Under the pieces are notes generated by a model. It did no database searches. It had not been told where the DNA came from and saw only the letters and a list, made by a program, of their open reading frames with translations. The position numbers and the translations under genes are program-made. From the NCBI RefSeq assembly GCF_008180155.1, contig NZ_VSZS01000068.1:248001-312000 (forward strand): a stretch of 64,000 nucleotides of DNA, given 5' to 3'. Each line of letters opens with the position of its first letter. Position 1 is the first letter of the stretch. The stretch is from Neoaquamicrobium microcysteis. GTDB lineage: Bacteria; Pseudomonadota; Alphaproteobacteria; Rhizobiales; Rhizobiaceae. Positions 9,553 to 30,711 of the stretch are shown in pieces.

Positions 9553-9696
9553 CGGCAAGCTCCCGACGTCATCGCACTGGTCGTTTTCTTTGCTGCCCGA
9601 AGTCTAGTTGCGCCGAAACCAAAGTCATTGGCGCTCAGTCCCGCGCGTTGGCAGCGTGTCCGAATTGCCGGGCTGATCGCCCTGCCAGCGCCTGCG

Positions 9697-14060: not shown

Positions 14061-14771
14061 TCAGCCGAGCTTGAGGCCGAGATAGCGTTCGAGGGTAGGT
14101 CCGTCGCGCAGCAGGTCCGCGGAGGGTGCGCGGTGCGCTACCATCCCGCGCTCGAGGATGACGGCTTCCTGTGTCAGCCGCAGCGCCACTTCGGCGTGCT
14201 GCTCGACGAGGATGATGGCGACGCCTTCGTCCTGCGTCATCTTCTTTACCGCCGCGGTCAGTTCCTCGATGATGATGGGGGCAAGGCCCTCGAACGGCTC
14301 GTCCAGAAGCAGCACGGAAGGGTTGGTCATGAGGGTGCGGGCCAGCGCCAGCATCTGCTGCTCGCCGCCGGAGAGCTGGTTTCCCATGTTGGCCCGCCGC
14401 TCCCGCAGCCTCGGAAACAGGGCATAGATCGACGTCACGTCCCAGCGGCCGGGCCGGGCTGCGACACCCAGATTTTCCTCGACGCTGAGAGAAGGGAATA
14501 TCTCCCGCTCCTGCGGCACCCAGCCCAGCCCCAGCCGCGCCCGCTTGTGCGGTGCGACGCGCGAGATGTCATTTGCCGCGAGCCGTACGGCACCGCGCGA
14601 AATGCCGACGAATCCCATCGCGGTGAGCAGCAGCGTCGTCTTGCCCACACCGTTGCGGCCGAGCAGTGCGAGGCTGCCGTTGGCAGGCAGGGACAGCGAC
14701 ACACCGTCCAGCACCACGGCCTCGCCATAGCCCGATCGCACCTCGTGGAACTCGAGCAACGCGTCAGGCAT
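14061..14771 (-). CDS. livF: Branched-chain-type ABC importer, ATP-binding protein LivF
   Basis: A 236-residue cytosolic ATPase. Walker A 'GRNGVGKTT' (about residues 34-42), the signature 'LSGGEQQMLALARTL', Walker B 'VLLLDEP' and the switch His in 'IILVEQHAE' are all intact. It ends with the LivF-type tail 'ERYLGLKLG'. The start ATG 14771 overlaps the stop of livG by 8 bases. It is the last gene of the livK-H-M-G-F order, the standard arrangement for hydrophobic amino acid and aromatic acid importers. Confidence 0.93.
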   Translation of the reverse strand: MPDALLEFHEVRSGYGEAVVLDGVSLSLPANGSLALLGRNGVGKTTLLLTAMGFVGISRGAVRLAANDISRVAPHKRARLGLGWVPQEREIFPSLSVEENLGVAARPGRWDVTSIYALFPRLRERRANMGNQLSGGEQQMLALARTLMTNPSVLLLDEPFEGLAPIIIEELTAAVKKMTQDEGVAIILVEQHAEVALRLTQEAVILERGMVAHRAPSADLLRDGPTLERYLGLKLG

Positions 14772-15522
14772 GACCGGCTCCGCCCAGATAGACTTCGCGA
14801 ACGCGCGGGTCGGTGCGCACTGTCTCGGGGTCTGCTTCCAGCAGCACGCCGCCCGCCACCAGAACGACGATGCGGGTTGCGAAGCGGAAGACGATGTCCA
14901 TGTCATGCTCGATGAAAAGCACGGATATGTCCTGCGGCAGTGCCGATATCACGTCGAAGAGCACCGCGCTCTCGTCCTTGGGGACGCCGGCGGCAGGCTC
15001 GTCGAGCAGGAGCACGCGGGGCCTGGTGGCGAGCGCCAGCGCGATCTCCAGCAGCCGCTGCTGCCCGTATGGCAGGGTGCGTGTCGTGCGGGTGGCGACG
15101 TCGCCCAGGCCCAGTTGCGTGAGGATGGCGAAGCTCTCGTCGATGGCTTCTTCATGGGCGAACAGCCCGCGCCAGAACTGGCCGGCCGTGCGCTGCCGCT
15201 CGCAGACGGCGAGCGTCACCGCCTCCAGCGGCGTCAGGTCGGGGAACAGCGTGTTGATCTGGAATGTGCGGGTAAGGCCGCGCCGCACGCGCGTGGCTGC
15301 TGGTGTGGCGGTGATGTCCTCCCCCTCCAGAGAGATCGTGCCCGAATCCGGCTTGAGCTGTCCGGTGATGAGGTTGATGAGCGTCGTCTTGCCGGCGCCG
15401 TTGGGCCCGATCAGCGCGTGGCGGCATCCGCGCGGCAGCGAAAGCGATACGTCGCGCGCCACCTCGAGCGAGCCGAACCTTTTCCGCAGCGCGTCCGTGC
15501 GCAGCACTATGGGTTCGCTCAT
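14764..15522 (-). CDS. livG: Branched-chain-type ABC importer, ATP-binding protein LivG
   Basis: A 252-residue ATPase with Walker A 'GPNGAGKTT', a Q-loop region 'RTFQINTLFPDLTPLEAV' and the signature 'LPYGQQRLLEIALAL'. The signature deviates from LSGGQ in the way usual for LivG. Walker B is 'VLLLDEP' and the H-loop 'LFIEHDMDIVF'. The start ATG 15522 overlaps the livM stop (ATGA). Paired with LivF it forms the heterodimeric motor. Confidence 0.93.
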   Translation of the reverse strand: MSEPIVLRTDALRKRFGSLEVARDVSLSLPRGCRHALIGPNGAGKTTLINLITGQLKPDSGTISLEGEDITATPAATRVRRGLTRTFQINTLFPDLTPLEAVTLAVCERQRTAGQFWRGLFAHEEAIDESFAILTQLGLGDVATRTTRTLPYGQQRLLEIALALATRPRVLLLDEPAAGVPKDESAVLFDVISALPQDISVLFIEHDMDIVFRFATRIVVLVAGGVLLEADPETVRTDPRVREVYLGGAGHA

Positions 15523-16514
15523 CGGCCGCTCCAACGCGATGCAAGCGCGGAGAGGCCGCCGAGGATGCCCTTGGGCATCACGAGCACGACGACCATCAGC
15601 AGCAGGCCGATCCAGAAATACCAGTACTGCGGATTGACGCCCGAGAGCTGGTCGCGTGCGATGAGGAAGATCGCCGCGCCGACGATCGCGCCATAAAGCC
15701 GGCCGGTGCCGCCCAGAATGAGCATGACGACAACGTCTGCGGAACGCTGGAAGCTCAGCGCATCGAGCGCGACCACATTGGTGGTCTGGGCCATCAGCGC
15801 TCCAGCGAGCCCCGCGATGGCTGCCGAAATGGTGTAAATTTTTTGCAGGTGCCCACGATAGTCCGACCCGATGGCAGGCATGCGCCTCACGTTCTCGCGT
15901 ACGCCGCGAAGCGCAAGCCCGAAGGAAGAATTGACGATCCGGCGGCTGACGAGGAAGCAGACGAAGAGCGCTGCCAGTGAGTACGAATAAGCGGTGTAGC
16001 CCCACAGGTCGAAGCGGAAATAGTTGAAGATCGGCCAGGTGCGAATGCCGCGCAGGCCGTCCGTGCCGCCCGTCAGCCACGACATGGAGTTTGCAAGCTC
16101 ATAGGTGAGCAGGCCCAGGCCGAGCGTTATCATGATGAGCGCCAGATGCTGGACGCGCACGATCATGAAACTGACGACGAAGCCTACCAGCCCGGCAAAG
16201 GCCGCTGCCAAAAGCAGGCCGCTGAGCGGCTCGCCCCATCCATAGACGCTGATGAGGCCGGCGGCATAGGCGCCCAGCCCGAAGAACATGGCATGGCCGA
16301 GCGTGACGATGCCGGCATAGCCGAGGATGAGATCGACGGAGATTGCGAACAGGGCTGCGATGGCGATCTGGCTTGCCAGCGTCAGATAGGTCGGGAAGAA
16401 GAAGAACGGCAGCAGCAGCGCCAGCCAGAACACCACCTCCAGCGGCGACCAGCGGCTTTGTCGCCGGAGCCAACCCTGAGCATCGAAAGGCGCGTTTGCC
16501 GTCACGTCACTCAT
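15519..16514 (-). CDS. livM: Branched-chain-type ABC importer, permease LivM
   Basis: A 331-residue inner-membrane protein with an N-terminal cytosolic stretch (about 25 residues) and about nine or ten membrane segments. 'ILGYAGIVTLGHAMFFGLGAYAAGL' near the N-terminus and 'GLALRGVRENVRRMPAIG', the coupling helix facing the ATPases, are LivM hallmarks. Its start lies 4 bases from the livH stop. Together with LivH it forms the channel. Confidence 0.92.
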   Translation of the reverse strand: MSDVTANAPFDAQGWLRRQSRWSPLEVVFWLALLLPFFFFPTYLTLASQIAIAALFAISVDLILGYAGIVTLGHAMFFGLGAYAAGLISVYGWGEPLSGLLLAAAFAGLVGFVVSFMIVRVQHLALIMITLGLGLLTYELANSMSWLTGGTDGLRGIRTWPIFNYFRFDLWGYTAYSYSLAALFVCFLVSRRIVNSSFGLALRGVRENVRRMPAIGSDYRGHLQKIYTISAAIAGLAGALMAQTTNVVALDALSFQRSADVVVMLILGGTGRLYGAIVGAAIFLIARDQLSGVNPQYWYFWIGLLLMVVVLVMPKGILGGLSALASRWSGR

Positions 16515-16518
16515 CCGG

Positions 16519-17394
16519 TCACCGCTTTCCGAACAGGCCGAGCGGCTTGACGAACAGGATGGCCACCAGCAGCAGATAGATGAGGAAGGAGCCGATCTCC
16601 GGCATGAAATATTTGCCGGCCACGTCTCCGATGCCGAGAAGGGCGGCACCCGCGAAGGAACCCGCGATGGAGCCAAGCCCGCCTACGGCCACCACGATCA
16701 AAACGTAGACGAGGAAGTGGAAGCCGAAGGCCGGGTCGAGACCGACGATCTCGATCGCCAGCGCGCCGCCCAGCCCCGCAAGCCCGCTGCCCAGCGCAAA
16801 GGTGATGGCGAAAATGCGCTCGACATCGAGGCCCAGCCCCTGCGCCACGCGCTGGTTATCGACCGCAGCGCGGATCTGCGCGCCCAGCCGCGTACGCTCC
16901 AGCCCGAAGACGAGAACAGCGGTCACCGCCAGCGCGACAACGATGAGGAAGATGCGATAGACGCCCAGGCGCAGCCCGAACACCTCGACGGATCCACGCA
17001 GCCACGACGGCAGGATGATGACCTGCTGCACGGTGCCGAACGCATATGTTGCAATCGCCGCCGCGACGAACACGACGCCGATGGTGAACAGTACCTGATT
17101 GAGCTCACCTGCCTTGTAGAGCCGGCGAAACAGCGTGCGCTCGAACACCACGCTGACCAGTGCCGCCCCCAGAAACGCCGCGGGCAGCGCGAGCAGGAAA
17201 GGCAGCCCGAGCTGGCGCATCGTCAACACGGCGATGTAGCCGCCAAGCATGCCAAATGCACCGTGCGCGAGGTTGATGAAATTCATCAACCCCAGCGTCA
17301 CCGACAGGCCCACCGACAGGACGAACAGAAGCATCCCGAAGGCGAACCCGTCGAAGAGGACGATGGCGATCTGGTTGACCACGATCGGAATCAC
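16519..17394 (-). CDS. livH: Branched-chain-type ABC importer, permease LivH
   Basis: A 291-residue inner-membrane protein. 'LSVTLGLMNFINLAHGAFGMLGGYIA' and the coupling segment 'RAAVDNQRVAQGLGLDV' mark LivH. The start codon is GTG 17394, 8 bases after the livK stop. Unlike three other substrate-binding-protein genes in the window, no stem-loop fits in the gap between livK and livH. Confidence 0.92.
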   Translation of the reverse strand: MIPIVVNQIAIVLFDGFAFGMLLFVLSVGLSVTLGLMNFINLAHGAFGMLGGYIAVLTMRQLGLPFLLALPAAFLGAALVSVVFERTLFRRLYKAGELNQVLFTIGVVFVAAAIATYAFGTVQQVIILPSWLRGSVEVFGLRLGVYRIFLIVVALAVTAVLVFGLERTRLGAQIRAAVDNQRVAQGLGLDVERIFAITFALGSGLAGLGGALAIEIVGLDPAFGFHFLVYVLIVVAVGGLGSIAGSFAGAALLGIGDVAGKYFMPEIGSFLIYLLLVAILFVKPLGLFGKR

Positions 17395-17401
17395 GCCTGT
17401 G

Positions 17402-18580
17402 TCAGTTGGCGCCGTGCAGCGGGTCCTTCACCTCCGGTATTTCGTGGATGATGACGTTCTGAAGTTCGCCATCCACTTCCTGGACCTCGCGGATATAGAC
17501 GGTCTGCACCACATCGCGCGTCTCGGGGTCGATGCTCATCGGCCCGCGCGGGCTCTCCCACGCCATGCCTTTCGCCGCCTCCACCAACGCGTCGCCGGAA
17601 GCGTCGCCGTCGGTCGCCTTCAGCGCCTCGTAGATGAGATGCATGCCGTCATAGCCGCCGATGGAGAACAGGTCGGGTTTGCGGCCGTTGTTGGCCGCCG
17701 TGTAGCCTTCGACATATTCCTTGTTGAGCGGATCATCGCGCTCCAGCGTGTAGTGGAACGTGGTGATGATGCCGCGCGCGGTCTCGCCCATGCTTTCCAG
17801 CGCCTCGGGGTGGGTCAGTTCACCCTGTGCGAATATCTTGGTTTCCGGAGGAGCCAGGCCCCGATCAGCAAGCGCCTTGCCGATGGCCGCAGGCTGGGCA
17901 CCGCCGGGTACGAAGATGTATACGGCTTCGGGGTTGGCATCGCGAACGCGCTGAACGAAAGCGGAGAAGTCCGGATTGGCAACGGGCGTGCGATCCGAGC
18001 CGAGGATTTCCCCACCGGCTTCGGTGAAGCCCTGCGAGAACGACTTCTCGGCATCGTGGCCCGGCCCGTAATCCGACACGAGCGTGTAGGCCTGCTTTAT
18101 GCCCGCCTCGTCGAAGGCCCATTTGCCGAAGGAATAGTTGAGCTGCGGGATGGTGACCGACGTACGCACGATGTACGGCGACTGCTCGGTGACGATGGAT
18201 GTGGCGGCGTTCATCACCACCATCAGCTTCTGCGCTTCCTGCGACACGGGGGCCGCGCCCAGCGCCTCCGGCGTCAGGGCAAAGCCCGCCAGGATGTCTA
18301 CGCCGTCGCGCACGACAAGCTCCTGCGCGAGGCGCTGCGCCACATCGGGGGCCGGGCCGCCGGTATCGCGCTTGATGATCTCGATCTTCTTTCCAGCGAC
18401 CTCATCGCCGTGTTTTGCCATGTAAAGGTCGATGCCGGCCTGAAGCTGGTTGGCCGCGTCCGCGAACGGGCCGGAATAGGGCAGGATGACGCCGATCTTG
18501 ACCGTCTCCTGCGCGATGGCCGCGCCCGACCATGCAAGGCCCAGCCCAAGCGCCGTGGCCGCTGCTGCATTCTTCAACAT
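17402..18580 (-). CDS. livK: Branched-chain-type ABC importer, substrate-binding protein LivK
   Basis: A 392-residue periplasmic binding protein. Signal peptide 'MLKNAAAATALGLGLAWSGAAIAQ' is followed by the type I binding-protein start 'TVKIGVILPYSGPFADAANQLQAGIDLYM'. ATG 18580 has GGGAGG 9 bases upstream; the longer in-frame extension is not hydrophobic. Two TGTATACA dyads lie upstream (18651-18660 and 18850-18859), matching those in front of ligM and metF. The importer is therefore probably co-regulated with the demethylation genes. An aromatic or methoxylated acid is the inferred substrate; family members also carry branched-chain amino acids. Confidence 0.9.
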   Translation of the reverse strand: MLKNAAAATALGLGLAWSGAAIAQETVKIGVILPYSGPFADAANQLQAGIDLYMAKHGDEVAGKKIEIIKRDTGGPAPDVAQRLAQELVVRDGVDILAGFALTPEALGAAPVSQEAQKLMVVMNAATSIVTEQSPYIVRTSVTIPQLNYSFGKWAFDEAGIKQAYTLVSDYGPGHDAEKSFSQGFTEAGGEILGSDRTPVANPDFSAFVQRVRDANPEAVYIFVPGGAQPAAIGKALADRGLAPPETKIFAQGELTHPEALESMGETARGIITTFHYTLERDDPLNKEYVEGYTAANNGRKPDLFSIGGYDGMHLIYEALKATDGDASGDALVEAAKGMAWESPRGPMSIDPETRDVVQTVYIREVQEVDGELQNVIIHEIPEVKDPLHGAN

Positions 18581-18650: not shown

Positions 18651-18660
18651 GTGTATACAT
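18651..18660. promoter_or_regulatory. Candidate GntR operator upstream of livK (proximal)
   Basis: GTGTATACAT, with the perfect 8-base palindrome TGTATACA, lies 71 bases upstream of the livK ATG. It fits the general GntR-family half-site pattern (y-GT-N-AC-r) and is identical over 10 bases to the site at 19828. Confidence 0.65.
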
Positions 18661-18849
18661 CGTTTTCAGGATCGCCAAGGGGATGCAACGCAATCGTGAA
18701 CGGCACCGCGGCGGGTTGAGCAGATGTCAGTTGGAGCTACTGGGCAGCTAAAGCGCTAGCTGCAAAAGGATTTTCGTAACGCCAGAACCAGCTGCCTTGC
18801 CGCCGCCTCGACGCTTCGCATATCGATCCCAGAGCGAGATCGACACGGC

Positions 18850-18859
18850 CTGTATACAG
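18850..18859. promoter_or_regulatory. Candidate GntR operator upstream of livK (distal)
   Basis: CTGTATACAG is a perfect 10-base palindrome carrying the same TGTATACA core. It sits 20 bases beyond the purU stop and about 270 bases upstream of livK, so with the proximal site it could support looping repression. Confidence 0.55.
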
Positions 18860-18878
18860 AGCAATGCCTTCCCATCAG

Positions 18879-19745
18879 CTATTCGGGAAAGACGATCGTC
18901 CTCATGCCGTTGATCAACACGCGGTCTTCCAGATGCGAGCGCACGGCGCGCGCCAGCACCCGCCGCTCGATGTCGCGGCCCTTGCGAACCAGTTCGTCGG
19001 CACTGTCGCGATGGCTGATGCGCTCGATGTCCTGCTCGATGATGGGGCCTTCGTCGAGGTCGCTGGTCACGTAATGTGCGGTCGCCCCGATCAATTTCAC
19101 GCCCCGCTCATAAGCCTGGTGATAGGGCTTGGCACCCTTGAAACCCGGCAGGAAGGAATGGTGAATGTTGATGCAGCGCCCGGCCAGACGCGCCGAAAGC
19201 TCATGTGAGAGCACCTGCATGTAGCGGGCGAGCACGACCAGATCGATCTGCTCTGCCTCGATCAGCGCTGCGAGCTTGTCCTCTTGCTCGGCCTTGTTTT
19301 CCTTGCTTACCGGCAGGTAGTGAAACGGGATGTCGGCGAACGACAGGTTGGCATAGGTCTCGCGCGGATGGTTCGAGACGATGGCGCGCACATCCATCGG
19401 CAGCTCTCCGATCTGCCAGCGATAGAGAAGGTCCGCCAGGCAATGGTCGAACTTCGACGCCATAAGCAGCACCCTGCGCCGCTCGCCCTGAACGCGCAGG
19501 GACCATGTCATCGCGAAGCCATCCATGACCGGGGCCAGAGCCCGGCGCGCGGTATCCGCGTCGAGCGGGCCGGAAACGCCCCGAAACACGACGCGCGAGA
19601 AGAACTGGCCGGTGCCCGCGTCGTCGAACTGCTGCAGATCGAGGATGTCGCCTCCGAGGTCGAACACGGCCTTGGAAAGCGCGGCGACGATGCCTGCCCT
19701 GTTGGTGCAGTAGGCTGTGAGAACCAGTGAAGCGTCGGTGGTCAT
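18879..19745 (-). CDS. purU: Formyltetrahydrofolate deformylase
   Basis: A 288-residue cytosolic enzyme that hydrolyses 10-formyl-THF to formate and THF. An N-terminal ACT domain (about residues 8-85, '[25 protein letters not shown]') is followed by a formyltransferase-type domain. Its triad residues are visible in '[12 protein letters not shown]' (Asn193, His195) and '[10 protein letters not shown]' (Asp229). ATG 19745 fits the family length; two in-frame ATGs upstream add only 12 to 18 residues. Placed beside a THF-dependent O-demethylase and a MetF homologue, it would drain methyl-derived one-carbon units as formate and free THF for the next demethylation. Confidence 0.93.
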
Positions 19746-19827
19746 CGTTGTTCCGTTTGGTGCGTGGCTGAAGTCGCGCATGTCTATCCGCTGCGCCACG
19801 CCATGCCTATAGCTTGGGCGATGTGTC

Positions 19828-19837
19828 GTGTATACAT
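19828..19837. promoter_or_regulatory. Candidate GntR operator between purU and gntR
   Basis: GTGTATACAT lies 83 bases upstream of purU and 110 bases upstream of the divergent gntR, so one bound dimer could control both, including autoregulation. Confidence 0.65.
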
Positions 19838-19947
19838 CCTTGGGAAAGGAGACTTATGGAGCCGCGCTTTCGGTGTTAGAATGCGCCTGCGATGGATACA
19901 TCGCTCCCGATAGTTTGCGCACAGCGAAGGGGCAAGAGGCTAGACCT

Positions 19948-20685
19948 ATGTTGCAGACCACGGCCAAGACGCATGCAATGCGCGCGCTGATCGACCTGCG
20001 CAAGAAGATACTGGCGGGCGACTATCCCGGCGGTACGCGGCTGTTCGAGGTCGCCCTGGCGGAGGACATGGGCATTTCACGCACGCCGGTGCGTGAGGCG
20101 ATGTCGCGCCTAGCCGAGGAAGGGCTGCTCGACCGCGCGCGTGGCGGCGGCTTCATCGTGCGCACTTTCGGCTTTGCCGACGTGGTCGATGCCATAGAAC
20201 TGCGTGGGGTGCTGGAGGGAACGGCCGCGCGGCTTGCGGCCGAGCGTGGCGTTGCGCCGGACGCCCTCGCCCGCATTCGGGACACGGTCTCCAGGCTCGA
20301 CAAATGTTTCGGAGAGACACCGGACGATGTCGATTTCGATGCCTATTCAGAACTGAATGCCCGCTTCCACAGCGAGCTGGCCGGCCTTGCGGGCAGCGAG
20401 ATCATCCGGCGCGAGGTGGAGCGCGCGGCGCGGCTGCCCTTCGCATCGCCCTCGGCATTTTCGCCCAGCACGGCGGGCATCGCGGCATTCCGCCGGTCGC
20501 TGGCCACCGCGCAGGAGCAGCACAAGGCGATCCTGTCCGCCATCGTCGCACGCGAAGGCGCGCGCGCCGAAGCCATCGCGCGCGAACACGCCCGTGTCGC
20601 ACGCCGCAATCTGGAATACGTCATGGGCGAAGGCCGCAGCCTCATTGCCCGCGTGCCCGGCCTCGCGCTCGTCAAGAACGCCTGA
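19948..20685 (+). CDS. GntR-family regulator (FadR/FCD subfamily)
   Basis: A 245-residue DNA-binding protein. The winged helix-turn-helix (about residues 10-72) contains 'LAEDMGISRTPVREAMSRLAEEGLL' and 'GGGFIVRTF', both diagnostic of GntR. The C-terminal all-helical FCD ligand domain carries the usual metal-ligand-like Asp/His positions (…'NARFHSELAGLAGS'…). ATG 19948 lies 9 bases after AGAGGC; an in-frame extension to 19828 would start inside the operator and is unlikely. It is divergent from purU and precedes ligM. I infer that it recognises TGTATACA and represses the liv, purU, ligM and metF units until a substrate or intermediate binds. Confidence 0.9.
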   Translation: MLQTTAKTHAMRALIDLRKKILAGDYPGGTRLFEVALAEDMGISRTPVREAMSRLAEEGLLDRARGGGFIVRTFGFADVVDAIELRGVLEGTAARLAAERGVAPDALARIRDTVSRLDKCFGETPDDVDFDAYSELNARFHSELAGLAGSEIIRREVERAARLPFASPSAFSPSTAGIAAFRRSLATAQEQHKAILSAIVAREGARAEAIAREHARVARRNLEYVMGEGRSLIARVPGLALVKNA

Positions 20686-20764
20686 CGGCCGGAAAAAGGC
20701 GTCCGCGCGCCAGCGTGCATCGCCGCGTTCCACCTCTTGCTTTTGGCTGCCATGTACGCGCATA

Positions 20765-20774
20765 ATGTATACAT
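20765..20774. promoter_or_regulatory. Candidate GntR operator upstream of ligM
   Basis: ATGTATACAT, a perfect 10-base palindrome, lies 27 bases upstream of the ligM ATG. It overlaps a -10-like CATAAT, so binding would block promoter access. The 15-base string CATAATGTATACATT recurs exactly before metF. Confidence 0.75.
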
Positions 20775-20801
20775 TCAATGATCCACTCGGGAGGAGAGAG
20801 A

Positions 20802-22217
20802 ATGTCGAAATCCAGCCTGGAAGCCATTTTGAGCGAGAAAGGCAATGCCGTGGAGATGCTGCGCAACTCCCGAATCGGCATGTATGTATACCCCGTGGTT
20901 GCGCCGGAGTTTTCCAACTGGCGTGACGAGCAGCGCGCGTGGCGCGACTCGGCCGTGCTTTTCGACCAGACGCACCACATGGACGAACTGATCGTCGAAG
21001 GCCCCGATGCCGAGAAGTTCCTCGCGCATCACGGTATCAACTCGTTCTCCAACTTCGACCTTAACCGTGCGAAGCATTTCGTCCCGGTCACCCCCAACGG
21101 GCATGTGATCGGCGATCACATCATCTTCCGCGAGCGGCAGGACAAGTTCATCCTCGTGGGGCGCGCGCCGACCGCCAACTGGCTGCAGTTCTGCGCCGCG
21201 TATGGCGAGTGGAACGTGCGTATCAAGCACGATCCGCGCTCGCCGTCGCGCCCGGAGGGCGAGCGCGTGCTGCGCACCCACTACCGCTACCAGATACAGG
21301 GGCCGGAAGCGCCGAAGATCTTCGAGAAGCTCAACCGCGGCCCGATCCCTGACATCAAGTTCTTCCATGTGGACAAGATCAATATCGGCTCCAAGAAGGT
21401 GCAGGCGCTGCGCCACGGCATGTCGGGTGCGCCGGGCCTGGAAATCTGGGGGCCGTATGAGGACAAGCCCTACATTCTGGCCTGCATTCTGGAAGCCGCA
21501 AAGGAAGCCGGCGTCGATCTGGTACGATGCGGCAGCCGCGCCTACTCGACCAACACACTGGAATCCGGATGGATTCCCTCTCCGCTTCCGGGCATCTATA
21601 CCGGCGACGGGATGCTCAAGGCCTACCGTGAATGGCTGGGCGCCGACAGCTACGAGGCCGGCGGCTCGATCGGCGGCAGCTTCATCTCCAAGAACATCGA
21701 GGACTACTACGTCAACCCGTTTGAGCTCGGCTACGACTTCTACATCGGCTGGAAGAAAGACGACTTCATCGGCAAGGCGGCGCTCCAAAAGATGAAGGGC
21801 CAGAAGAACCGCAAGAAGGTTACGTTCGAGTGGAATGCCGAGGACGTCGTCAACGTCATCGCGTCAGCCTTCCGTCCGGGCGAGGACCACTACAAGTGGA
21901 TCGACTTCCCGCAACCCAACTACGCCTCCTCGAGCGCCGACATGGTGATGCATGACGGCAAGATGGTCGGTATGTCGATGTTCAACGGCTACAGCTACAA
22001 CGAGCGCTGCATGCTGTCGCTCGGCGTCGTCGATCAGAGCGTCAACGAAGGCGACGTGCTGACCCTGATCTGGGGCGAGCCGGACGGCGGCAGCGGCAAG
22101 ACCTCCACCGAGCGGCACAAGCAGGCCGAGATCCGCGTGCGCGTTTCGCCTACGCCGTATGCCCGCGAGGCACGCGAAAACTACGCCGACAGCTGGCGCA
22201 CCAAGAAGACCGCCTGA
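20802..22217 (+). CDS. ligM: Tetrahydrofolate-dependent O-demethylase, LigM type (GcvT superfamily)
   Basis: A 471-residue enzyme of the GcvT-like aminomethyltransferase superfamily, the length of Sphingobium LigM. LigM moves the methoxy methyl of vanillate or 3-O-methylgallate to THF, giving 5-methyl-THF and protocatechuate or gallate. The N-terminal 'NAVEMLRNSRIGMYVYPVVAPE', 'FDQTHHM' (His58/His59), 'VGRAPTANWL' (Arg121), 'GAPGLEIWGPYE' (Glu214) and 'RAYSTNTLESGWIPSPLPGIYTGD' (Tyr248) correspond, by my recollection, to LigM active-site positions. ATG 20802 follows GGAGGAGAG; an earlier in-frame ATG at 20778 lacks such a site. It is followed by a strong terminator and so forms its own unit. 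Confidence 0.88.
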   Translation: MSKSSLEAILSEKGNAVEMLRNSRIGMYVYPVVAPEFSNWRDEQRAWRDSAVLFDQTHHMDELIVEGPDAEKFLAHHGINSFSNFDLNRAKHFVPVTPNGHVIGDHIIFRERQDKFILVGRAPTANWLQFCAAYGEWNVRIKHDPRSPSRPEGERVLRTHYRYQIQGPEAPKIFEKLNRGPIPDIKFFHVDKINIGSKKVQALRHGMSGAPGLEIWGPYEDKPYILACILEAAKEAGVDLVRCGSRAYSTNTLESGWIPSPLPGIYTGDGMLKAYREWLGADSYEAGGSIGGSFISKNIEDYYVNPFELGYDFYIGWKKDDFIGKAALQKMKGQKNRKKVTFEWNAEDVVNVIASAFRPGEDHYKWIDFPQPNYASSSADMVMHDGKMVGMSMFNGYSYNERCMLSLGVVDQSVNEGDVLTLIWGEPDGGSGKTSTERHKQAEIRVRVSPTPYAREARENYADSWRTKKTA

Positions 22218-22270
22218 CCGGCGGGCCTCCGCGAGGGGGCGACACGCAGGCTATCTACGGGGCGGGCATA

Positions 22271-22310
22271 AAAGCCGTGGCAGGACAAACCCTGCCACGG
22301 CTTTCTCTCT
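22271..22310 (+). terminator. Rho-independent terminator after ligM
   Basis: A 14-base perfect stem (22271-22284 with 22291-22304; core GCCGTGGCAGG) with a 6-base loop ends in a pyrimidine run (CTTTCTCTCTT). It lies 54 bases after the ligM stop. Confidence 0.85.
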
Positions 22311-22442
22311 TGCCTCCGTGCAGGGAATGTATGCAGCACACTACTCCATGGGCACATGCCATCAGCCTGCGTGACCCATATCGCGCCCTTTTGGCGCTCG
22401 CGCGTCTATAAATGCAACCACTTGCGGCTTCCTGCATTCATA

Positions 22443-22452
22443 ATGTATACAT
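22443..22452. promoter_or_regulatory. Candidate GntR operator upstream of metF
   Basis: ATGTATACAT, a perfect palindrome 27 bases upstream of the metF ATG, has the same sequence, spacing and -10-like CATAAT overlap as the ligM operator. This shows that metF has its own regulated promoter after the ligM terminator. Confidence 0.75.
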
Positions 22453-22479: not shown

Positions 22480-23406
22480 ATGGCTTGGTGGGAGCGTTTC
22501 GGGGGTGGGAAGGACGAACCGGCAGCCGCGGATGATGCGCTCGGCGCCATGGTGGCCGGCCATTCCATCGAGGTCATGCCTCGCACGGCAGCCAAGATCG
22601 AGGACTTTCGAGCCATATTGCCGGCAGGTACGCGCGTATACATTGCCCATATCGACGGAACGCCTATCGAAGACATGGTCGCGACAGCGCGACGCCTGCG
22701 CGACGAGGGCTTTGCCGTCATGCCGCATCTGCCGGCCCGCAGCATAGAAAGCGAAGCGGTGCTGGAAGAGTGGCTGTTGCGGTATCGCGAAGAGGCGGGC
22801 GTTGAAGAAGCCCTGCTGCTTGCCGGCGGGGTGGAGACCCCGCGCGGCAACCTCGACAGTTCGATCCAGATGATTGAAACGGGCCTTTTCGACAAGCACG
22901 GCTTTCGCCGCCTGCACGTTGCCGGCCACCCCGAAGGCAACAAGGATATCGATCCCGACGGTTCCACCAAGGAGGTCGACAAGGCGCTGGCCTGGAAGCA
23001 GGCGTTTTCCGAGAGCACCGACGCGCAGATGGCGATCGTCACCCAGTTTGCGTTCGACGCAAAGCCGGTGATCGCGTGGACCGAGCGTCTGCGCCAGCAA
23101 GGCATCACGCTGCCGGTGCATGTGGGCATCGCCGGGCCGGCAAAACTGCAGACGCTTATCAAATGCGCGATGGCGTGCGGTGTCGGCCCATCGCTCAAGG
23201 TGCTCCAGCGCCGCGCAATGGACCTCACCAAGCTGATGCTGCCCTATAAGCCGACCGAGGTTACGGGCGAGCTTGCGGCGTGGCGGGCCGCGCACCCGGA
23301 AAGCCTGATCGAGCAGCTTCACATCTTCCCGCTGGGCGGCATTGCGGCCAGTGCCGACTGGGCTCGTGTGCATGCCGCGCCACAGGAAATGGCCATGGCT
23401 GGCTGA
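22480..23406 (+). CDS. metF: Methylenetetrahydrofolate reductase-like protein
   Basis: A 308-residue MetF-fold protein. 'SIEVMPRTAAKIEDFRAILPAGTRVYIAHI' (about residues 28-57) is the strand and loop where MetF carries its catalytic Glu. 'EALLLAGG', 'VAGHPEGNKDI', 'AIVTQFAFDAKPVIAWTE' and 'PVHVGIAGPA' follow the order of flavin- and folate-contact regions. In this setting it would run towards 5-methyl-THF oxidation, regenerating methylene-THF after demethylation. GGGAGG lies 9 bases before ATG 22480. Sphingobium also keeps a metF next to ligM, which supports a dedicated role rather than methionine synthesis. Confidence 0.85.
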   Translation: MAWWERFGGGKDEPAAADDALGAMVAGHSIEVMPRTAAKIEDFRAILPAGTRVYIAHIDGTPIEDMVATARRLRDEGFAVMPHLPARSIESEAVLEEWLLRYREEAGVEEALLLAGGVETPRGNLDSSIQMIETGLFDKHGFRRLHVAGHPEGNKDIDPDGSTKEVDKALAWKQAFSESTDAQMAIVTQFAFDAKPVIAWTERLRQQGITLPVHVGIAGPAKLQTLIKCAMACGVGPSLKVLQRRAMDLTKLMLPYKPTEVTGELAAWRAAHPESLIEQLHIFPLGGIAASADWARVHAAPQEMAMAG

Positions 23407-23506: not shown

Positions 23507-24238
23507 ATGAGCGACAGGACGGCGCTGGTCATCAGCGCGCATTCGGCGGATTTCGTCTGGCGTTGTGGCGGCGCGATAGCGTTGCACGCGCAGAAGGGCG
23601 TAAACGTCACAGTCGTCTGCCTTTCCTATGGCGAGCGCGGCGAAAGCGCCAAACTGTGGAAGCAGGAGGGCATGACGCTCGAGCAGGTCAAGGCCGGCCG
23701 GCGCGCGGAAGCCGAAAACGCAGCAAAGGCGCTCGGCGTTCACGACATCCAGTTTTTCGACTGCGGTGACTATCCGCTCGAACTCGACCGTGAACAGAAG
23801 TTCCGGCTGGTCGACGTGATCCGCAAGGTACAGCCGGATTTCATGCTCTCGCATTCGCTGGACGACCCTTACAATACCGACCATCCCTATGCCACGCGCG
23901 TGGCGCTGGAATGCCGCATGGTCGCGCAGGCGTGGGGGCACAATCCCGGCGAGAAGGTGCTGGGGGCGCCTCAGCTGTACCTCTTCGAGCCCCACCAGAC
24001 CGAGCAGTGCGCATGGAAGCCGGACACCATTCTCGACATCACCGATGTGTGGGAAAAGAAGAAGGCCGCGATCGAGTGCATGGAAGGCCAACAGCACCTG
24101 TGGGACTACTACACCAACGTCGCCCAGAACCGCGCCAACCAGTTCCGCCGCAATTCGGGCGGGCAGGCTGGCGGCCGGGAAGCGAAATATGCCGAGGCTT
24201 TCCAGTCGATCTTCCCGCGCACCGTGGATGAACTGTGA
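23507..24238 (+). CDS. galB: 4-oxalomesaconate hydratase-like protein, GalB type (PIG-L fold)
   Basis: A 243-residue protein of the PIG-L/LmbE zinc-hydrolase fold. The usual AHPDD metal motif reads '[14 protein letters not shown]' (about residues 9-22), keeping His and the second Asp. The downstream '[16 protein letters not shown]' region supplies further zinc-type ligands. This variant motif is what I recall for GalB of Pseudomonas putida, which hydrates 4-oxalomesaconate in gallate degradation. It is followed directly by aldolase and tautomerase homologues of the same pathway, which strongly supports the call over a sugar deacetylase. GGGAGG precedes the ATG by 8 bases. Confidence 0.8.
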
Positions 24239-24912
24239 TGGGCGGGATCGTGGTTCGGAACATCGAGCGCGCAGACCCATCCGCCATTGACGGGCTCGGC
24301 AAGTGCGGGGTTGCGACCGTGCACGAGGCGATGGGCCGAACCGGCCTGATGCGCTCCTACATGCGGCCGATCTATGCCGGGGCGCGCATCTCAGGTTCGG
24401 CCGTCACCGTTTCGGTTGCGCCGGGCGACAACTGGATGATCCATGTCGCCGTTGAGCAGTGCCATGAAGGCGACATTCTCGTCGTCGCGCCGACCAGCCC
24501 CTGTGAGGACGGATATTTCGGCGAGCTTCTGGCACGCTCGCTGATGGCGCGCGGCGTGAAGGGGCTCATCATCGAAGCCGGCGTGCGCGACGTGCGCGAC
24601 CTTACCGAGATTGGCTTTCCGGTGTGGTCGAAGGCGGTATTCGCGCAAGGGACGGTGAAGGAGACGGTGGGCTCCGTCAACGTACCCGTTGTCTGTGCCG
24701 GTGCGGCGGTGAACCCAGGAGACGTGATCGTCGCAGACGATGACGGTGTATGCGTCGTTCCACGTGCGCAGGCCGGCACGGCACTGCAGGCAAGCCTCAC
24801 CCGCGAGGCGAAGGAAGGCGAAGTACGCCAGCGGCTGATGGCCGGAGAGGCCGGGCTCGACATCTATGGCATGCGCGACAAGCTGGCGGCCAAGGGCCTC
24901 AAATATGTCTAG
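24238..24912 (+). CDS. galC: 4-carboxy-4-hydroxy-2-oxoadipate (CHA/HMG) aldolase
   Basis: A 224-residue member of the RraA-like class II pyruvate aldolase family (LigK/ProA/GalC). It cleaves 4-carboxy-4-hydroxy-2-oxoadipate to pyruvate and oxaloacetate. Visible features are '[16 protein letters not shown]' near the N-terminus, '[25 protein letters not shown]' with the Arg-Asp metal-site pair, and '[29 protein letters not shown]'. ATG 24238 shares one base with the galB stop (TGATG). The gene overlaps galD by 8 bases, so galBCD is a tight operon. Confidence 0.88.
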
Positions 24913-25963
24913 AGGAGGCGTCCGCTGCATGTGGATGCGCGGCGGCACGTCGAAGGGCGGATATTTTCTCGCCGACGATCTGCCTGCCGACGCCACTGCA
25001 CGTAACACCTTCCTGCTGCGCGCGATGGGGTCTCCCGACGCGCGGCAGATCGACGGCATGGGCGGAGCAGACCCCCTCACCTCCAAAGTGGCGGTTGTGA
25101 CCAAATCGGCGCGCGATGGCGTCGATGTCGATTACCTGTTCCTTCAGGTGTTCGTGGACCGGCCCATCGTGACCGATGCGCAGAACTGCGGCAACATCCT
25201 CGCTGGCGTCGGCCCATTCGCAATCGAACGGAGGCTGGTCGCGGCGCAGGAGGGCGTCACCGATGTGCGCATCTTCATGGAAAATACCGGCCAGGTAGCG
25301 GTGGCGCGCATCTCTACACCGGGCGGCGAGGTGAACTACGAGGGCGATGCCCGCATCGACGGCGTGCCCGGGACCGCATCAGCCGTGCCGATCGAGTTCA
25401 AGGAAACGGACGGTTCATCGTGCGGCGCGCTGCTGCCGACGGGCAATGTCGTGGACACCCTCGAAGGTGTCGCGGTGACGATGATCGACAACGGCATGCC
25501 CTGCGTCGTGATGCGCGCTGCCGATTTCGGCGTAACCGGCTATGAGGAGCCCTCCGATCTTGAGGCGAACGAAACGTTGCGTGCGAAGGTCGAGGCCATC
25601 CGGCTCAAGGCCGGACCGCTGATGAACCTCGGCGATGTGGCGGAGAAATCGGTTCCCAAGATGACGCTCGTCGCCAGTCCGCGCAAAGGCGGCGCGATCT
25701 CGACACGCACCTTCATCCCGCATCGCTGCCATTCGTCCATCGGCGTGCTGGGAGCTGTCAGCGTCGCCACCGCCTGCCTGTTGCCGGGCAGCCCGGCGGC
25801 GGCACTTGCAGACGTGGGCTCTGGCTTGCAGCGCACCCTTTCCATCGAGCATCCGACAGGCGAGATGAGTGTCGTGGCAACGATGGACGACAGCGGCGCG
25901 GTGATATCGGCCGCCATCCTGCGCACGGCGCGCAAGCTGTTCGACGGCTTGGTGTTCGGCTAG
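24905..25963 (+). CDS. galD: 4-oxalomesaconate tautomerase (PrpF family)
   Basis: A 352-residue protein of the PrpF/diaminopimelate-epimerase fold. The N-terminus '[18 protein letters not shown]' is the PrpF signature. '[18 protein letters not shown]' carries the first catalytic Cys region, and '[19 protein letters not shown]' is the second conserved block. In the gallate/protocatechuate 4,5-cleavage pathway GalD converts keto and enol forms of 4-oxalomesaconate before GalB acts. ATG 24905 lies within the end of galC. A methylaconitate isomerase role is possible for the family but unlikely next to galB and galC. Confidence 0.85.
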
Positions 25964-27021: not shown

Positions 27022-27684
27022 ATGGAGATGGAAGTGCGCGAAACGGCAACGCTGAGAGAGAAAGCTTACGACGCTTTCAAGAAGCGTCTGTTCTCGCGCG
27101 ACATCCGTCCCGGCCAGTTCCTTTCTCAGCGCGAATTGGTTGAGGTCACCGGCATGCCGCTCGGCGCGATCCGGGAGCTGGTGCCGCGGCTCGAGGCCGA
27201 CGGTCTCATCAAGACGGTTCCGCAGCGCGGGATGCAGATCGCGCATGTCGATGTCGACCTCATTCGCAACGCCTTCCAGCTTCGCCTCATCCTCGAGCGC
27301 GAGGCTGCGGCCGAGTTCTGCCGCAAGGCCGAGGACACAACCCTTCTGCGTCTTCGCGACGAGCATCTGGCTGTGAAGCGGGAGGCCAGCGAAGGTGTTA
27401 CGCCGGACCTGCTTGAACGCGCGCAGCAGATGGACTGGCTGTTCCACGACCAGATGATCGACACGCTCGGCAACGCACTGATTTCAAGCGTCTACCGGGT
27501 CAACTCGATCAAGATCAGGCTGATTAGGCAGCAGGATACGCGCATGTTGCCAGAGCTCGTCACCTCGGTCATGGACGAGCACATGCGCATCATCGACGCG
27601 CTGGTGGCTCGCGACGAGGCCGGTTCGGTGCAGGCGCTGGAGGCGCATATCGACATTGCGAGGAGGCGCGCGCTGGGCATTTAG
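27022..27684 (+). CDS. GntR-family regulator (FCD domain)
   Basis: A 220-residue regulator. A winged helix-turn-helix (about residues 8-72) includes 'QRELVEVTGMPLGAIRELVPRLEADGLI' and 'PQRGMQIA', followed by an FCD-type helical domain. Its start is 3 bases after the lyase stop, so it is co-transcribed with the lyase. It precedes the TRAP transporter and probably controls the lyase and/or that transporter. It is only distantly similar to the GntR protein at 19948, and I see no TGTATACA dyad near it. Confidence 0.87.
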   Translation: MEMEVRETATLREKAYDAFKKRLFSRDIRPGQFLSQRELVEVTGMPLGAIRELVPRLEADGLIKTVPQRGMQIAHVDVDLIRNAFQLRLILEREAAAEFCRKAEDTTLLRLRDEHLAVKREASEGVTPDLLERAQQMDWLFHDQMIDTLGNALISSVYRVNSIKIRLIRQQDTRMLPELVTSVMDEHMRIIDALVARDEAGSVQALEAHIDIARRRALGI

Positions 27685-27691
27685 GGCGAAG

Positions 27692-27708
27692 CCGGCCGGG
27701 AGGGCCGG
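27692..27708 (+). terminator. Short GC stem-loop after the GntR gene
   Basis: CCGGCC and GGCCGG pair around a 5-base loop, 7 bases after the stop codon. There is no U-run, so termination is doubtful. Confidence 0.3.
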
Positions 27709-27793
27709 ACAGAAATGGACCTTCGGTATCGATCAGGCTTTCGGTGCCGAGCCATGAGCACAAACCAAGACGAACCAACGGGAGGAGTTCATC

Positions 27794-28792
27794 ATGAAAA
27801 CGAAGTTCAATCGCCGGACAATGCTGGCATCGGTTGCCGCTGCGGCCATCGCCATCACGACACTCGGCCAGTCAGCGCTTGCGCAGGACAAGGTCACGCT
27901 GCGCCTTTCCACTCCGGCATCGGAAACCGACCAGCGCGCCGTAGCCCTCGTCGAGAAGTTCGGCCCCGCCGTCAGCGAGTTCGCCAATTTCGAGCCGCAC
28001 TGGAACGCGACGCTGTTCAACCAGGGCACCGAGCTGGAGGCCATCGCACGTGGCAACCTCGAAATGTCGATCGCCTCGGCACAGGAACTGGCCGTCTTCT
28101 TTCCCGAGTTCTCGATCTTCACGGCCGGTTACGTGCATCGCGACGCCGCGCATCAGGTTGCCGTCTTCAACGATCCGCTGATGGATCCATTCAAGCAGAA
28201 GGTCGAGGAAGAGCTGGGCGTCAAGCTGCTGACCGTCATGTATCTCGGCCGCCGGCAGGTCAACCTGCGCACCGACAAGGAAGTTCGTACGCCGGCCGAT
28301 CTTGCGGGGGTGAAGCTGCGCATGCCGAACACCGATGCCTGGCTGTTCCTGGGCGAAGCGCTGGGTGCCAGCCCGACACCAGTCGCCTTCACCGAAATCT
28401 ACACCGCTCTGCAGACCGGCGCGGTTGACGGGCAGGACAACCCGCTGCCGACCGTCGTTGACGCAAAATTCTACGAGGTGACCAAGCAGGTGGTGCTGAC
28501 CAGCCACCTCGTCGATCTCAACTATCTTGCCATGTCGAAAAGCGTGTGGGACGCGCTGACGCCGGAACAGCAGCAGGCTGTGCAGAAGGCTGCCGATGAC
28601 GCGGCCGAGTTCGGGCGCCAAAACCAGCTTGCGAAGGAGGAGGAACTCGTCTCCTTCCTCGAGGAGCAGGGGCTGAAAGTCTACGAGCCCGACCTCGACG
28701 CGTTCCGCACGACGGTGCAGCAGAAGTATCTCGAGTCCGATTTCGCCAAGGACTGGCCGGAAGGCACGCTCGAGAAGATCAACGCGCTCTAA
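27794..28792 (+). CDS. dctP: TRAP transporter substrate-binding protein, DctP family
   Basis: A 332-residue periplasmic binding protein with a twin-arginine-containing signal (KFNRRTMLASVAAAAIAITTLGQSALAQ). The body carries TRAP features such as 'VKLRMPNTDAWLFLGEALGASPTPVAFTEIYTALQTGAVDGQDNPLPTV'; the conserved Arg in 'LRMPN' normally binds a substrate carboxylate. GGAGGAG precedes the ATG by 7 bases. A stem-loop separates it from the membrane subunit genes. The substrate is therefore probably an organic acid, perhaps related to the preceding lyase. Confidence 0.92.
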   Translation: MKTKFNRRTMLASVAAAAIAITTLGQSALAQDKVTLRLSTPASETDQRAVALVEKFGPAVSEFANFEPHWNATLFNQGTELEAIARGNLEMSIASAQELAVFFPEFSIFTAGYVHRDAAHQVAVFNDPLMDPFKQKVEEELGVKLLTVMYLGRRQVNLRTDKEVRTPADLAGVKLRMPNTDAWLFLGEALGASPTPVAFTEIYTALQTGAVDGQDNPLPTVVDAKFYEVTKQVVLTSHLVDLNYLAMSKSVWDALTPEQQQAVQKAADDAAEFGRQNQLAKEEELVSFLEEQGLKVYEPDLDAFRTTVQQKYLESDFAKDWPEGTLEKINAL

Positions 28793-28814
28793 CGGCTGTG
28801 CGCCGAGGCGGCAT

Positions 28815-28848
28815 CCGGGCTTAGGCGGCAAGGCCGTGCCGAGCCCGG
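28815..28848 (+). other. Intercistronic stem-loop after dctP
   Basis: CCGGGCT (28815-28821) pairs with AGCCCGG (28842-28848), with an inner GGC/GCC helix at 28824-28826 and 28838-28840. It lies between dctP and dctQ, without a U-run, in the position of stabilising hairpins known for binding-protein mRNAs. Confidence 0.6.
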
Positions 28849-28915
28849 CTGCGCCGCGCCTCAGTGATGCAGAGCGGCTGCGCTCCGCGTCCCCAGACCC
28901 AGCGAGGACGGACCG

Positions 28916-29419
28916 ATGCAGGCGATAGGACGCTGGCTGCATTTGCGGGCAGAAAACGTGGCGGTGGCGCTGCTCGCCGCCATGTTCCTCACTTTCATCC
29001 TGCAGATTTTCGCGCGCTATGTGCTGGTGATGCCAGTAGGTTGGACGCTGGAACTCTGCCTGACACTGTGGATATGGATCGTTTTCTGGGGCAACGCCTT
29101 CCTCGTGCGCCATCGCGATCATGTCACGTTCGACATTCTCTATCTGGCGGTGCCGTCCGGCATACGGCGCATCATGGCGCTGACGGCTGCGGCGGCCATC
29201 GTCGTCGGCTTCGCCGTCACCCTGCTGCCGACTTGGGACTATATCGACTTCCTGAAGATCAAGCGCAGCTCGACAATGCGGATTCCGATGCGCACGGTCT
29301 TCAGCATCTACGCGCTGTTCATGGTCGCCGTGATCGTCCGTTACGCATTCATGTTCTACCTCGTCTGGCGCCATGGCGCCGACCGGGAGCACCGTCACCT
29401 GGAGGTCACTGACGAATGA
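28916..29419 (+). CDS. dctQ: TRAP transporter small permease, DctQ family
   Basis: A 167-residue inner-membrane protein with four predicted membrane segments. 'LQIFARYVLVMPVGWTLELCLTLWIWIVFWGNAFLVRHRDHV' is the typical DctQ core. Its stop overlaps the dctM start (ATGA). It links the binding protein cycle to the large subunit. Confidence 0.88.
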   Translation: MQAIGRWLHLRAENVAVALLAAMFLTFILQIFARYVLVMPVGWTLELCLTLWIWIVFWGNAFLVRHRDHVTFDILYLAVPSGIRRIMALTAAAAIVVGFAVTLLPTWDYIDFLKIKRSSTMRIPMRTVFSIYALFMVAVIVRYAFMFYLVWRHGADREHRHLEVTDE

Positions 29420-30711
29420 GCCTCCAGTTCGCGCTTTGCCTCGTCACATTGTTCGTCCTCGCCGGCATCGGCACGCCGGTCGGCTACGCGATCATCCTGT
29501 CATCGACGGTCTACCTCATGGCCGTGGGACAGGATCTTGCGCTGTCGGGCGAAAAAATCCTGCAGGGGCTCTACGACAGCTTCATACTGCTCGCCGTGCC
29601 GCTCTTTATCGTTGCAGCCAACATCATGAATGCCGGCACGATCTCGGAACGCCTGCTCAACTTCTGCGTAGCTGCCGTAGGGCGTTTCCGCGGCGGGCTC
29701 GGTCACGTCAACATCGTCGCATCTCTCATCTTTTCCGGCATGTCCGGTTCCGCAGTGGCCGATGCCGCCGGTATCGGCAAGATCATCATCGGCATTATGA
29801 CCAAGGGAGGCCGCTATGCGCGCGGCTATGCGGCAGCCGTGACGGCAGCATCAGCCACCATCGGGCCGATCATCCCGCCGTCGATTCCCATGGTGCTCTA
29901 CGCGCTAGTTTCCAACACCTCGATCGGCTACCTGTTCCTCGGCGGCATCCTGCCGGGCTTGTTGATGGGCGTCGTTCTGATGGCGATGAACCATTGGCTG
30001 TCGGCACGACGCGGCTTTGCGCTTGAACAGCCCGTACCGTTGCGCGAATTGCCCGGCTACACACTGAACGCCTTCCCTGCCCTGCTGATGCCAGCGATCC
30101 TGCTCTACGGCATCTATGGCGGCGTTACGACGCCGACCGAGGCCGCAGCCGTCGCGGCCGCCTACGCGCTATTGCTGGCGGGCTTGTTCTACCGTGCGCT
30201 GTCGTGGCGGACGCTTTACTCGATCTTCGCCGAAAGCGCGCGGTCGTCTGCGGCGGTGGGCCTCGTCATCGGCGGTGCGCTCATACTCAACTATGTCGTG
30301 GCATCGGAGAATATTCCCAATCAGGTTGCGGGCGCACTGGTCGGGCTAGACGTACACCCGCTGGTCTTCCTGCTGGGTGTGAACCTTCTTCTTTTGTTGC
30401 TGGGCTGCGTGCTGGACGCCACGACGATCATTCTCGTCATCATCCCGCTCTTCCTGCCGACTTGCCGCGAGCTTGGCATCGACCTCGTGCATTTCGGCGT
30501 CGTGGCGGTGGTCAACTGTATGATCGGGCTTATTACGCCGCCCTATGGCATACTGCTCTTCGTCATCAACGCCGTCACCGATATCCCGCTTCGCGAGATC
30601 ATTGCTGAAATTTGGCCTTTCCTGGCCGCGCTTGTCGTCGCTCTGCTCATCATGATCCTGTTTCCCGGTGTGGTGCTGTTCCTGCCGCAGCAGTTCGGCT
30701 ATCTGGGCTGA
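29416..30711 (+). CDS. dctM: TRAP transporter large permease, DctM family
   Basis: A 431-residue inner-membrane protein with about twelve membrane segments. '[17 protein letters not shown]' and '[26 protein letters not shown]' are the DctM signatures, and '[23 protein letters not shown]' lies near the C-terminus. It carries out sodium- or proton-coupled uptake. An acyl-CoA dehydrogenase gene follows 49 bases later on the same strand. Confidence 0.92.

Follow-up and report, generated by a model that had tools for sequence, protein, structure and literature searches.

Probable operators of an Atu1419-type GntR repressor at an aromatic O-demethylation and one-carbon locus of Neoaquamicrobium microcysteis

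Why should one short palindrome, TGTATACA, recur between genes for uptake, O-demethylation and one-carbon metabolism? The question is raised by a 64,000-nucleotide stretch of Neoaquamicrobium microcysteis DNA (assembly GCF_008180155.1, contig NZ_VSZS01000068.1, positions 248,001 to 312,000; hereafter the window), in which a liv-type importer, a formyltetrahydrofolate deformylase (purU), a GntR-family regulator (gntR), a tetrahydrofolate (THF)-dependent O-demethylase (ligM) and a metF-like gene lie side by side. An earlier note on this DNA, made from the letters and their open reading frames, had listed five such palindromes, at 18651, 18850, 19828, 20765 and 22443, and read them as the mark of one GntR regulon in which uptake, O-demethylation and one-carbon disposal are joined. 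All five were recovered, with the 8-mer starting at 18652, 18851, 19829, 20766 and 22444 (the 10-mers begin one base earlier); shuffled windows held a mean of 0.08 copies, and none of 100 shuffles reached five. The full-genome scan that the note had proposed (4.84 Mb, 68 contigs) returned eight copies, five of them inside 3.8 kb of the window, and the control pattern, TGTATACA read backwards, occurred five times; the binomial p for five of eight copies within 3.8 kb is 1.7e-14, calculated after the cluster had been seen. We consider it highly probable that these dyads serve as operators for the GntR protein whose gene lies in their midst. This protein, orthologous to Atu1419 of Agrobacterium fabrum, would act as a tetramer on paired sites, would be released by methylene-THF and would govern a joint regulon.

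The palindromes, which are listed without a strand, are placed as follows. GTGTATACAT at 18651..18660, about 71 bp before livK, and CTGTATACAG at 18850..18859, 199 bp from it, both lie in the purU-livK gap and most simply belong to livK; GTGTATACAT occurs again at 19828..19837, between the divergent purU and gntR; and ATGTATACAT precedes both ligM (20765..20774) and the metF-like gene (22443..22452). The placement upstream of livK, purU/gntR, ligM and metF claimed in the note agrees with the positions, two of the five sites sharing one gap. The exact 10-mer ATGTATACAT has only these two copies genome-wide, and the 15-base string that the note saw 27 bases before both start codons is confirmed, the distance from TGTATACA through the ATG being 39 bases at both genes. 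We rejected the 15-mer as a longer operator, because in ligM-linked loci of the relatives the symmetric motif spans 10 bp (outer A in 77%) and conservation barely extends beyond it. A relaxed scan of the window (at most two mismatches, G3 and C8 kept) gave 12 copies, ten at 17.9-22.7 kb and only two elsewhere, and added five weaker copies that the note had overlooked: ATGTATACGG inside livK (17916..17925), which may be due to chance (codon-resampling p 0.14), ATGGATACAT before gntR (19892..19901), ATGTATACCC inside ligM (20884..20893), 119 bp from the promoter site, ATGTATGCAG at 22327..22336, 116 bp before the metF operator, and GCGTATACAT inside metF (22634..22643), 191 bp from that operator.

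The gntR gene (19948..20685, + strand) encodes a protein of 245 amino acids with 69% identity to Atu1419 (PDB 6z74 chain) and with GntR and FCD domains both over cut-off (PF00392, 55.6 bits; PF07729, 61.6 bits). According to PMC7797058, Atu1419 belongs to the VanR group of the FCD proteins in the GntR superfamily (PDB 6z74, 6za0, 6za3, 6za7 and 6zab), its published operator is ATGTATACAT, and it represses atu1418 (metF-like), atu1419 (itself) and atu1420 (ligM). The same study describes a tetramer that loops two promoter sites 190 bp apart in electron micrographs and binds, in gel shift in vitro, a weaker site that lies 109 bp off, within atu1420; methylene-THF released it from DNA, pathway intermediates did not, and loss of atu1418 lowered induction. 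The two systems are thus alike in operator and core targets: ATGTATACAT is exact at ligM and metF in the window, and the purU/gntR site has one mismatch. If the published spacings of 109 and 190 bp are measured edge to edge, they correspond to about 119 and 200 bp start to start, compared with 119 and 199 bp here. With residue roles assigned from that study, the DNA-contact residues E34, R45, T46 and R49 are identical in the window protein and in all 52 aligned proteins, and the window protein also keeps DNA-contact residue G66 and the pocket and zinc residues R86, Y133, N137, H141, S169, R183, H192, H214 and N221, among them all four zinc ligands (N137, H141, H192 and H214). The note's label of GntR/FadR-type operators accordingly stands for GntR, an orthologue having the same operator, but not for FadR, since identity to the solved protein places the regulator in the VanR/Atu1419 group, whose six-helix effector domain it would share. 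The systems differ in gene order, in residue 175, in the likely addition of livK and purU as targets here, and in that the A. fabrum gene sits with HcaR in a hydroxycinnamate cluster.

Does the dyad accompany this regulator in other genomes? Of 397 genomes of the order, 58 held relatives of GntR at E ≤1e-50 (60 matches); we compared 40 stretches fetched around 40 of these matches, including the genome's own paralogue, ten named loci and the window, classed the loci by the genes within 4.5 kb of gntR, and left the near-copies L024-L030 and L089 out of de-duplicated counts. The comparison, which the note had also suggested, bears the association out: TGTATACA occurs within 3 kb of gntR in 22/22 ligM-linked, 22/23 vanAB-linked, 2/3 metE-linked and 1/3 other loci, where the genes that we take to be vanA and vanB were named from their sequences. 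Among all 256 palindromic 8-mers it ranks first (37/43 de-duplicated loci), and in the 28 of these loci that lack ligM it ranks second (22/28), after GGCGCGCC (23/28). For the 15 ligM loci left after de-duplication, we looked for an exact dyad at the start of the aligned region of a gene or at most 450 bp upstream of it: one was present for ligM in 14/15, metF in 10/12, gntR in 10/15, livK in 2/3 and purU in 1/4, and for pigL in 0/6 and galD in 0/7. The note's regulon is therefore supported both by this footprinting and by the experimentally studied orthologue (PMC7797058).

The phylogenetic tree of the regulators divides them into two sets, ligM-linked and vanAB-linked (24 and 28 of 52 rows, support 100/100), and nine more rows left the split unchanged (27 and 34 of 61 rows, support 100/100). 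The window GntR and Atu1419 fall in the same set in both trees, and one ligM-linked regulator (L071) sits in the vanAB set. The VanR-type regulators at vanAB, which encodes a Rieske vanillate demethylase, thus are sister to the LigM clade. They share its TGTATACA operator, and some of them have an in-gene second site in vanA; they differ in demethylase chemistry, in their side of the tree, and in having Gln at residue 175 in 27 of 28 rows.

Pairing of sites is common to both clades. Of the 37 primary sites found in 15 ligM-linked loci, 31 have a second site within 350 bp (at most two mismatches), compared with a fraction of 0.119 of background positions; in 23 vanAB-linked loci the figures are 30 of 37 and 0.042; these counts are descriptive, as both members of a pair were counted and the loci are related. 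Among 19 metF loci, the second site lies in the gene in four (window, L070, L072 and L076) and only upstream in ten, three have none, and L066 and L067 have no operator before metF. The second site of ligM lies inside the gene over the codons TAT GTA TAC (Tyr-Val-Tyr), which include the rare valine codon GTA. Among 36 ligM-type genes with Gly-x-Tyr-Val/Ile-Tyr-Pro-Val, after omission of three with Ile and exclusion of more distant ligM-like genes, GTA encodes this valine in 21/27 genes with an upstream dyad versus 0/6 without (Fisher 8e-4, kinship not corrected). In the first 22 genes with an upstream dyad, GTA makes up 82% (18/22) at the site and at most 14% (mean 3.5%) at the other 27 conserved valine columns; after removal of near-copies it is found in 12/15 at the site, the other columns staying at or below 18%. 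The distance from the promoter site to the in-gene word is 117-122 bp in the 20 genes that have the word. The ligM of L128 has GTA and lacks the full word, and two loci, L070 (G020) and L072 (G185), carry ATGTATGCAT 73-74 bp upstream in place of the in-gene site. One or two stop codons were reported inside the ligM-type matches of L106-L108, L111, L117, L119-L121, L125 and L126.

The unrelated gene vanA shows the same kind of constraint. Thirteen of 23 vanA genes, forming one clade, have Cys-Val-Tyr-Met at the matching place, with GTA in 13/13, TGT in 12/13 and an exact in-gene TGTATACA in 12/13; in the 19 other conserved valine columns, GTA occurs in at most one gene per column. Of the other ten genes, nine have a different residue and no in-gene site, and L091 is a fragment. 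Thirty class-level vanA-type loci added two in-gene sites (L139 and L140); vanA-type genes with the valine and no exact dyad nearby (L145, L148, L158, L159 and L168) use GTG or GTC, and L142 has GTC despite its upstream dyads.

Which further genes answer to the repressor? The dyad lies upstream of livK in 14 of 15 loci holding both ligM and livK (the window, L023-L030, L198, L199, L200, L204 and L205, versus L064), or 7/8 when the near-copies L023-L030 are counted once, and in L198, L199, L200, L204 and L205 an exact copy stands less than about 150 bp before livK. A livK homologue is also present in five loci of the vanAB type (L086, L094, L097, L098 and L101), and in none of them was there a dyad within 420 bp before it, even at two mismatches. 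This comparison across relatives supports livK as a probable part of the regulon. For purU the arrangement varies: two dyads separate the divergent purU and ligM in L204, purU adjoins gntR in the same direction in L063, L064 and L065, and it follows ligM in L076 and galD in L198. It thus belongs to the cluster, with a dyad of its own only in the window and L204, and has the thinnest support of all putative direct targets. Both genes are probably true targets, and the regulon seems larger here than in A. fabrum. In L198 (7535-9543), a dyad at 9460 separates gntR from a divergent hydrolase-ligA-ligB set, and ring cleavage may have been drawn into the regulon in such relatives. A literature search, made mostly outside subscription papers, found neither purU or liv as targets of this repressor nor conserved in-gene operators of this kind; the enlarged regulon and these in-gene operators are the new part, the regulator and its operator being already known.

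A regulon extending over the genome found no support, as the three further exact copies (C35, C41 and C43) are present in chance numbers. The C43 copy (L003:1501-1508) lies 51 bp before a gene that is presumably ahcY, for S-adenosylhomocysteine hydrolase. A dyad within 150 bp before ahcY was found in two of 17 other genomes with this gene (G780 and G778, same genus) and was not found in the same interval in the remaining 15.

Operators, orthology, conservation, pairing and codon constraint are established in this analysis. Binding, repression, the tetramer, the loop, the gel shift of the in-gene site and the effector are carried over from A. fabrum, and by this analogy the locus would work as follows. 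A tetramer, a dimer of dimers, would occupy two 10-bp palindromes, one at the promoter and another that is often weaker, lies for the most part at a distance of 64-310 bp and in several cases falls inside the gene, and would repress by a loop or a roadblock. LigM would demethylate methoxylated aromatics of the lignin type to yield methyl-THF, and the metF-like enzyme would convert this to 5,10-methylene-THF, which would bind the FCD pocket (three His, one Asn, zinc) and release the repressor, so that liv uptake, ligM, the metF-like gene, purU and gntR itself would rise together. With a tetramer that bridges two operators and lets go of them when methylene-THF binds, the pairing, the in-gene sites and the joint control of demethylation and one-carbon metabolism would be explained.

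Several observations weigh against this mechanism. No consensus promoter was found in a sigma-70 scan of the region. The window GntR has Thr in place of Lys175, a residue that in one of the A. fabrum orientations touches citrate; since Lys occurs in 17 of 24 LigM-clade rows, we did not treat this residue as defining. The metF-like protein scores 26.9 bits with TIGR00676, far under the cut-off of 293.7, and gave no match in a Pfam search; the gene named metF in the note is therefore present, but its name is weak, and we call it metF-like. For purU, the single directly upstream dyad among four de-duplicated loci is joined only by that of L204. Judged singly and from the window alone, no in-gene site reaches significance (p 0.07-0.14). 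Finally, two species of the genus, G780 (94% complete) and G783, keep their ligM and liv dyads, and the E ≤1e-50 search found only a VanR-clade GntR in them; the local GntR is thus perhaps not the sole reader, and sites seemingly can outlive it.

This last point leads to the proposal that the dyads are read mainly by a VanR-clade paralogue, or by both proteins, which we regard as unlikely. This genome's paralogue (L082, G000:C46:27500-46500; gntR at 9317-10018; 52% identity) lies beside a MetE-like gene; it shares the DNA-contact residues ESRTR, and in G780 and G783, where ligM and liv dyads (in G780 also that of purU) persist, the only family member found at E ≤1e-50 is of the VanR clade and stands next to it in the tree. 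However, no dyad was found around it, even at two mismatches, and it is the LigM-clade gene that sits among the sites. The same-genus loci L201 and L203 do carry a TGTATACA-like dyad, and in some species the operators may be recognised by a GntR paralogue as well. In L199 and L200, ligM is flanked by two GntR genes, one per clade, and the in-gene ligM operator is absent. A stronger contender, though still a doubtful one, keeps repressor and operators and makes an aromatic substrate or product (vanillate or protocatechuate) the effector in place of methylene-THF. Vanillate is the inducer of VanR proteins, the sister clade lies mostly beside vanAB, and the 52 aligned proteins of both clades all have R86, Y133, N137, H141, H192 and H214; on the other side stand the Atu1419 results of PMC7797058, where methylene-THF and not the intermediates released DNA and loss of atu1418 cut induction.

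A cause other than a DNA site for the ligM GTA codon, be it translation speed, mRNA structure or shared descent, is in our view improbable. In its favour stand the codon's place near the 5' end, the kinship of many of the genes (among the six without a dyad, three come from one genus and two from another) and the lack of GTA in six genes with an upstream dyad (L024, L125, L126, L127, L199 and L200), which also weighs against the main reading. On the other hand, other conserved valines vary in codon, genes without the upstream dyad also lack GTA, the spacing is narrowly kept, vanA behaves alike, and in A. fabrum the repressor bound the in-gene site in vitro (PMC7797058). A chance cluster of an AT-rich palindrome has next to no probability: the other three genomic copies are about as many as chance would give, but the shuffles, the 8-mer ranking, the enrichment of second sites over background and the conservation of the dyad beside gntR across the order all speak against it.

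The genes of the locus were assigned as follows. The ligM gene (20778..22217, likely start 20802, + strand) encodes a THF-dependent vanillate/3-O-methylgallate O-demethylase (NF047885, 659 bits over a curated cut-off of 580; PDB 5x1i, E 3.3e-172), and the Atu1418-type metF-like gene follows at 22480..23406 (+). On the - strand lie purU (18879..19745; TIGR00655, 335 bits over a curated cut-off of 286) and livK, for the periplasmic binding protein of the importer (17402..18580; PF13458), both with inferred starts, and then open reading frames at 14061..17394 that we take to be livH, livM, livG and livF, homologues of which adjoin livK in relatives. The metF-like gene is followed at 23507..25963 (+) by genes for a PIG-L protein (galB-like), a ligK aldolase and a galD tautomerase, assigned by family profiles (TIGR02798 and NF033377 over cut-off; the PIG-L protein by PF02585 only) and possibly on the same transcript. 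These three form a lower pathway for 4-oxalomesaconate. The sole LigB-family match found in the genome (C37) is DOPA-dioxygenase-like, and no gene was assigned to ring opening; when the genome was searched for LigA there was no match, and the controls of that search gave none either. The stretch 27022-30711 holds a second, different GntR gene with a DHDPS-family gene before it and TRAP transporter genes after it; there is no exact dyad nearby and one two-mismatch copy at 28181.

The ligM and metF genes of SYK-6 are reportedly regulated by a different protein family. They share with this locus the LigM family and the one-carbon logic, as cited in PMC7797058. Tentatively, one operator and one repressor family may form a general switch for the one-carbon load of aromatic demethylation by any chemistry (LigM, Rieske VanAB, perhaps a MetE-like methyltransferase), with loops anchored by a second operator in the demethylase gene, synonymous codons constrained in two unrelated genes, and the importer and formyl-THF deformylase included here. 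A repressor studied in one strain becomes the centre of an order-wide regulon that can be searched by an 8-bp word and that gains uptake and probably formate release, and the codon constraint in two unrelated enzyme genes lends evolutionary support to the looping model. It also raises the question of why regulators of folate-dependent and oxygen-dependent demethylases share operator and core pocket; one answer may be that formaldehyde and THF yield methylene-THF.

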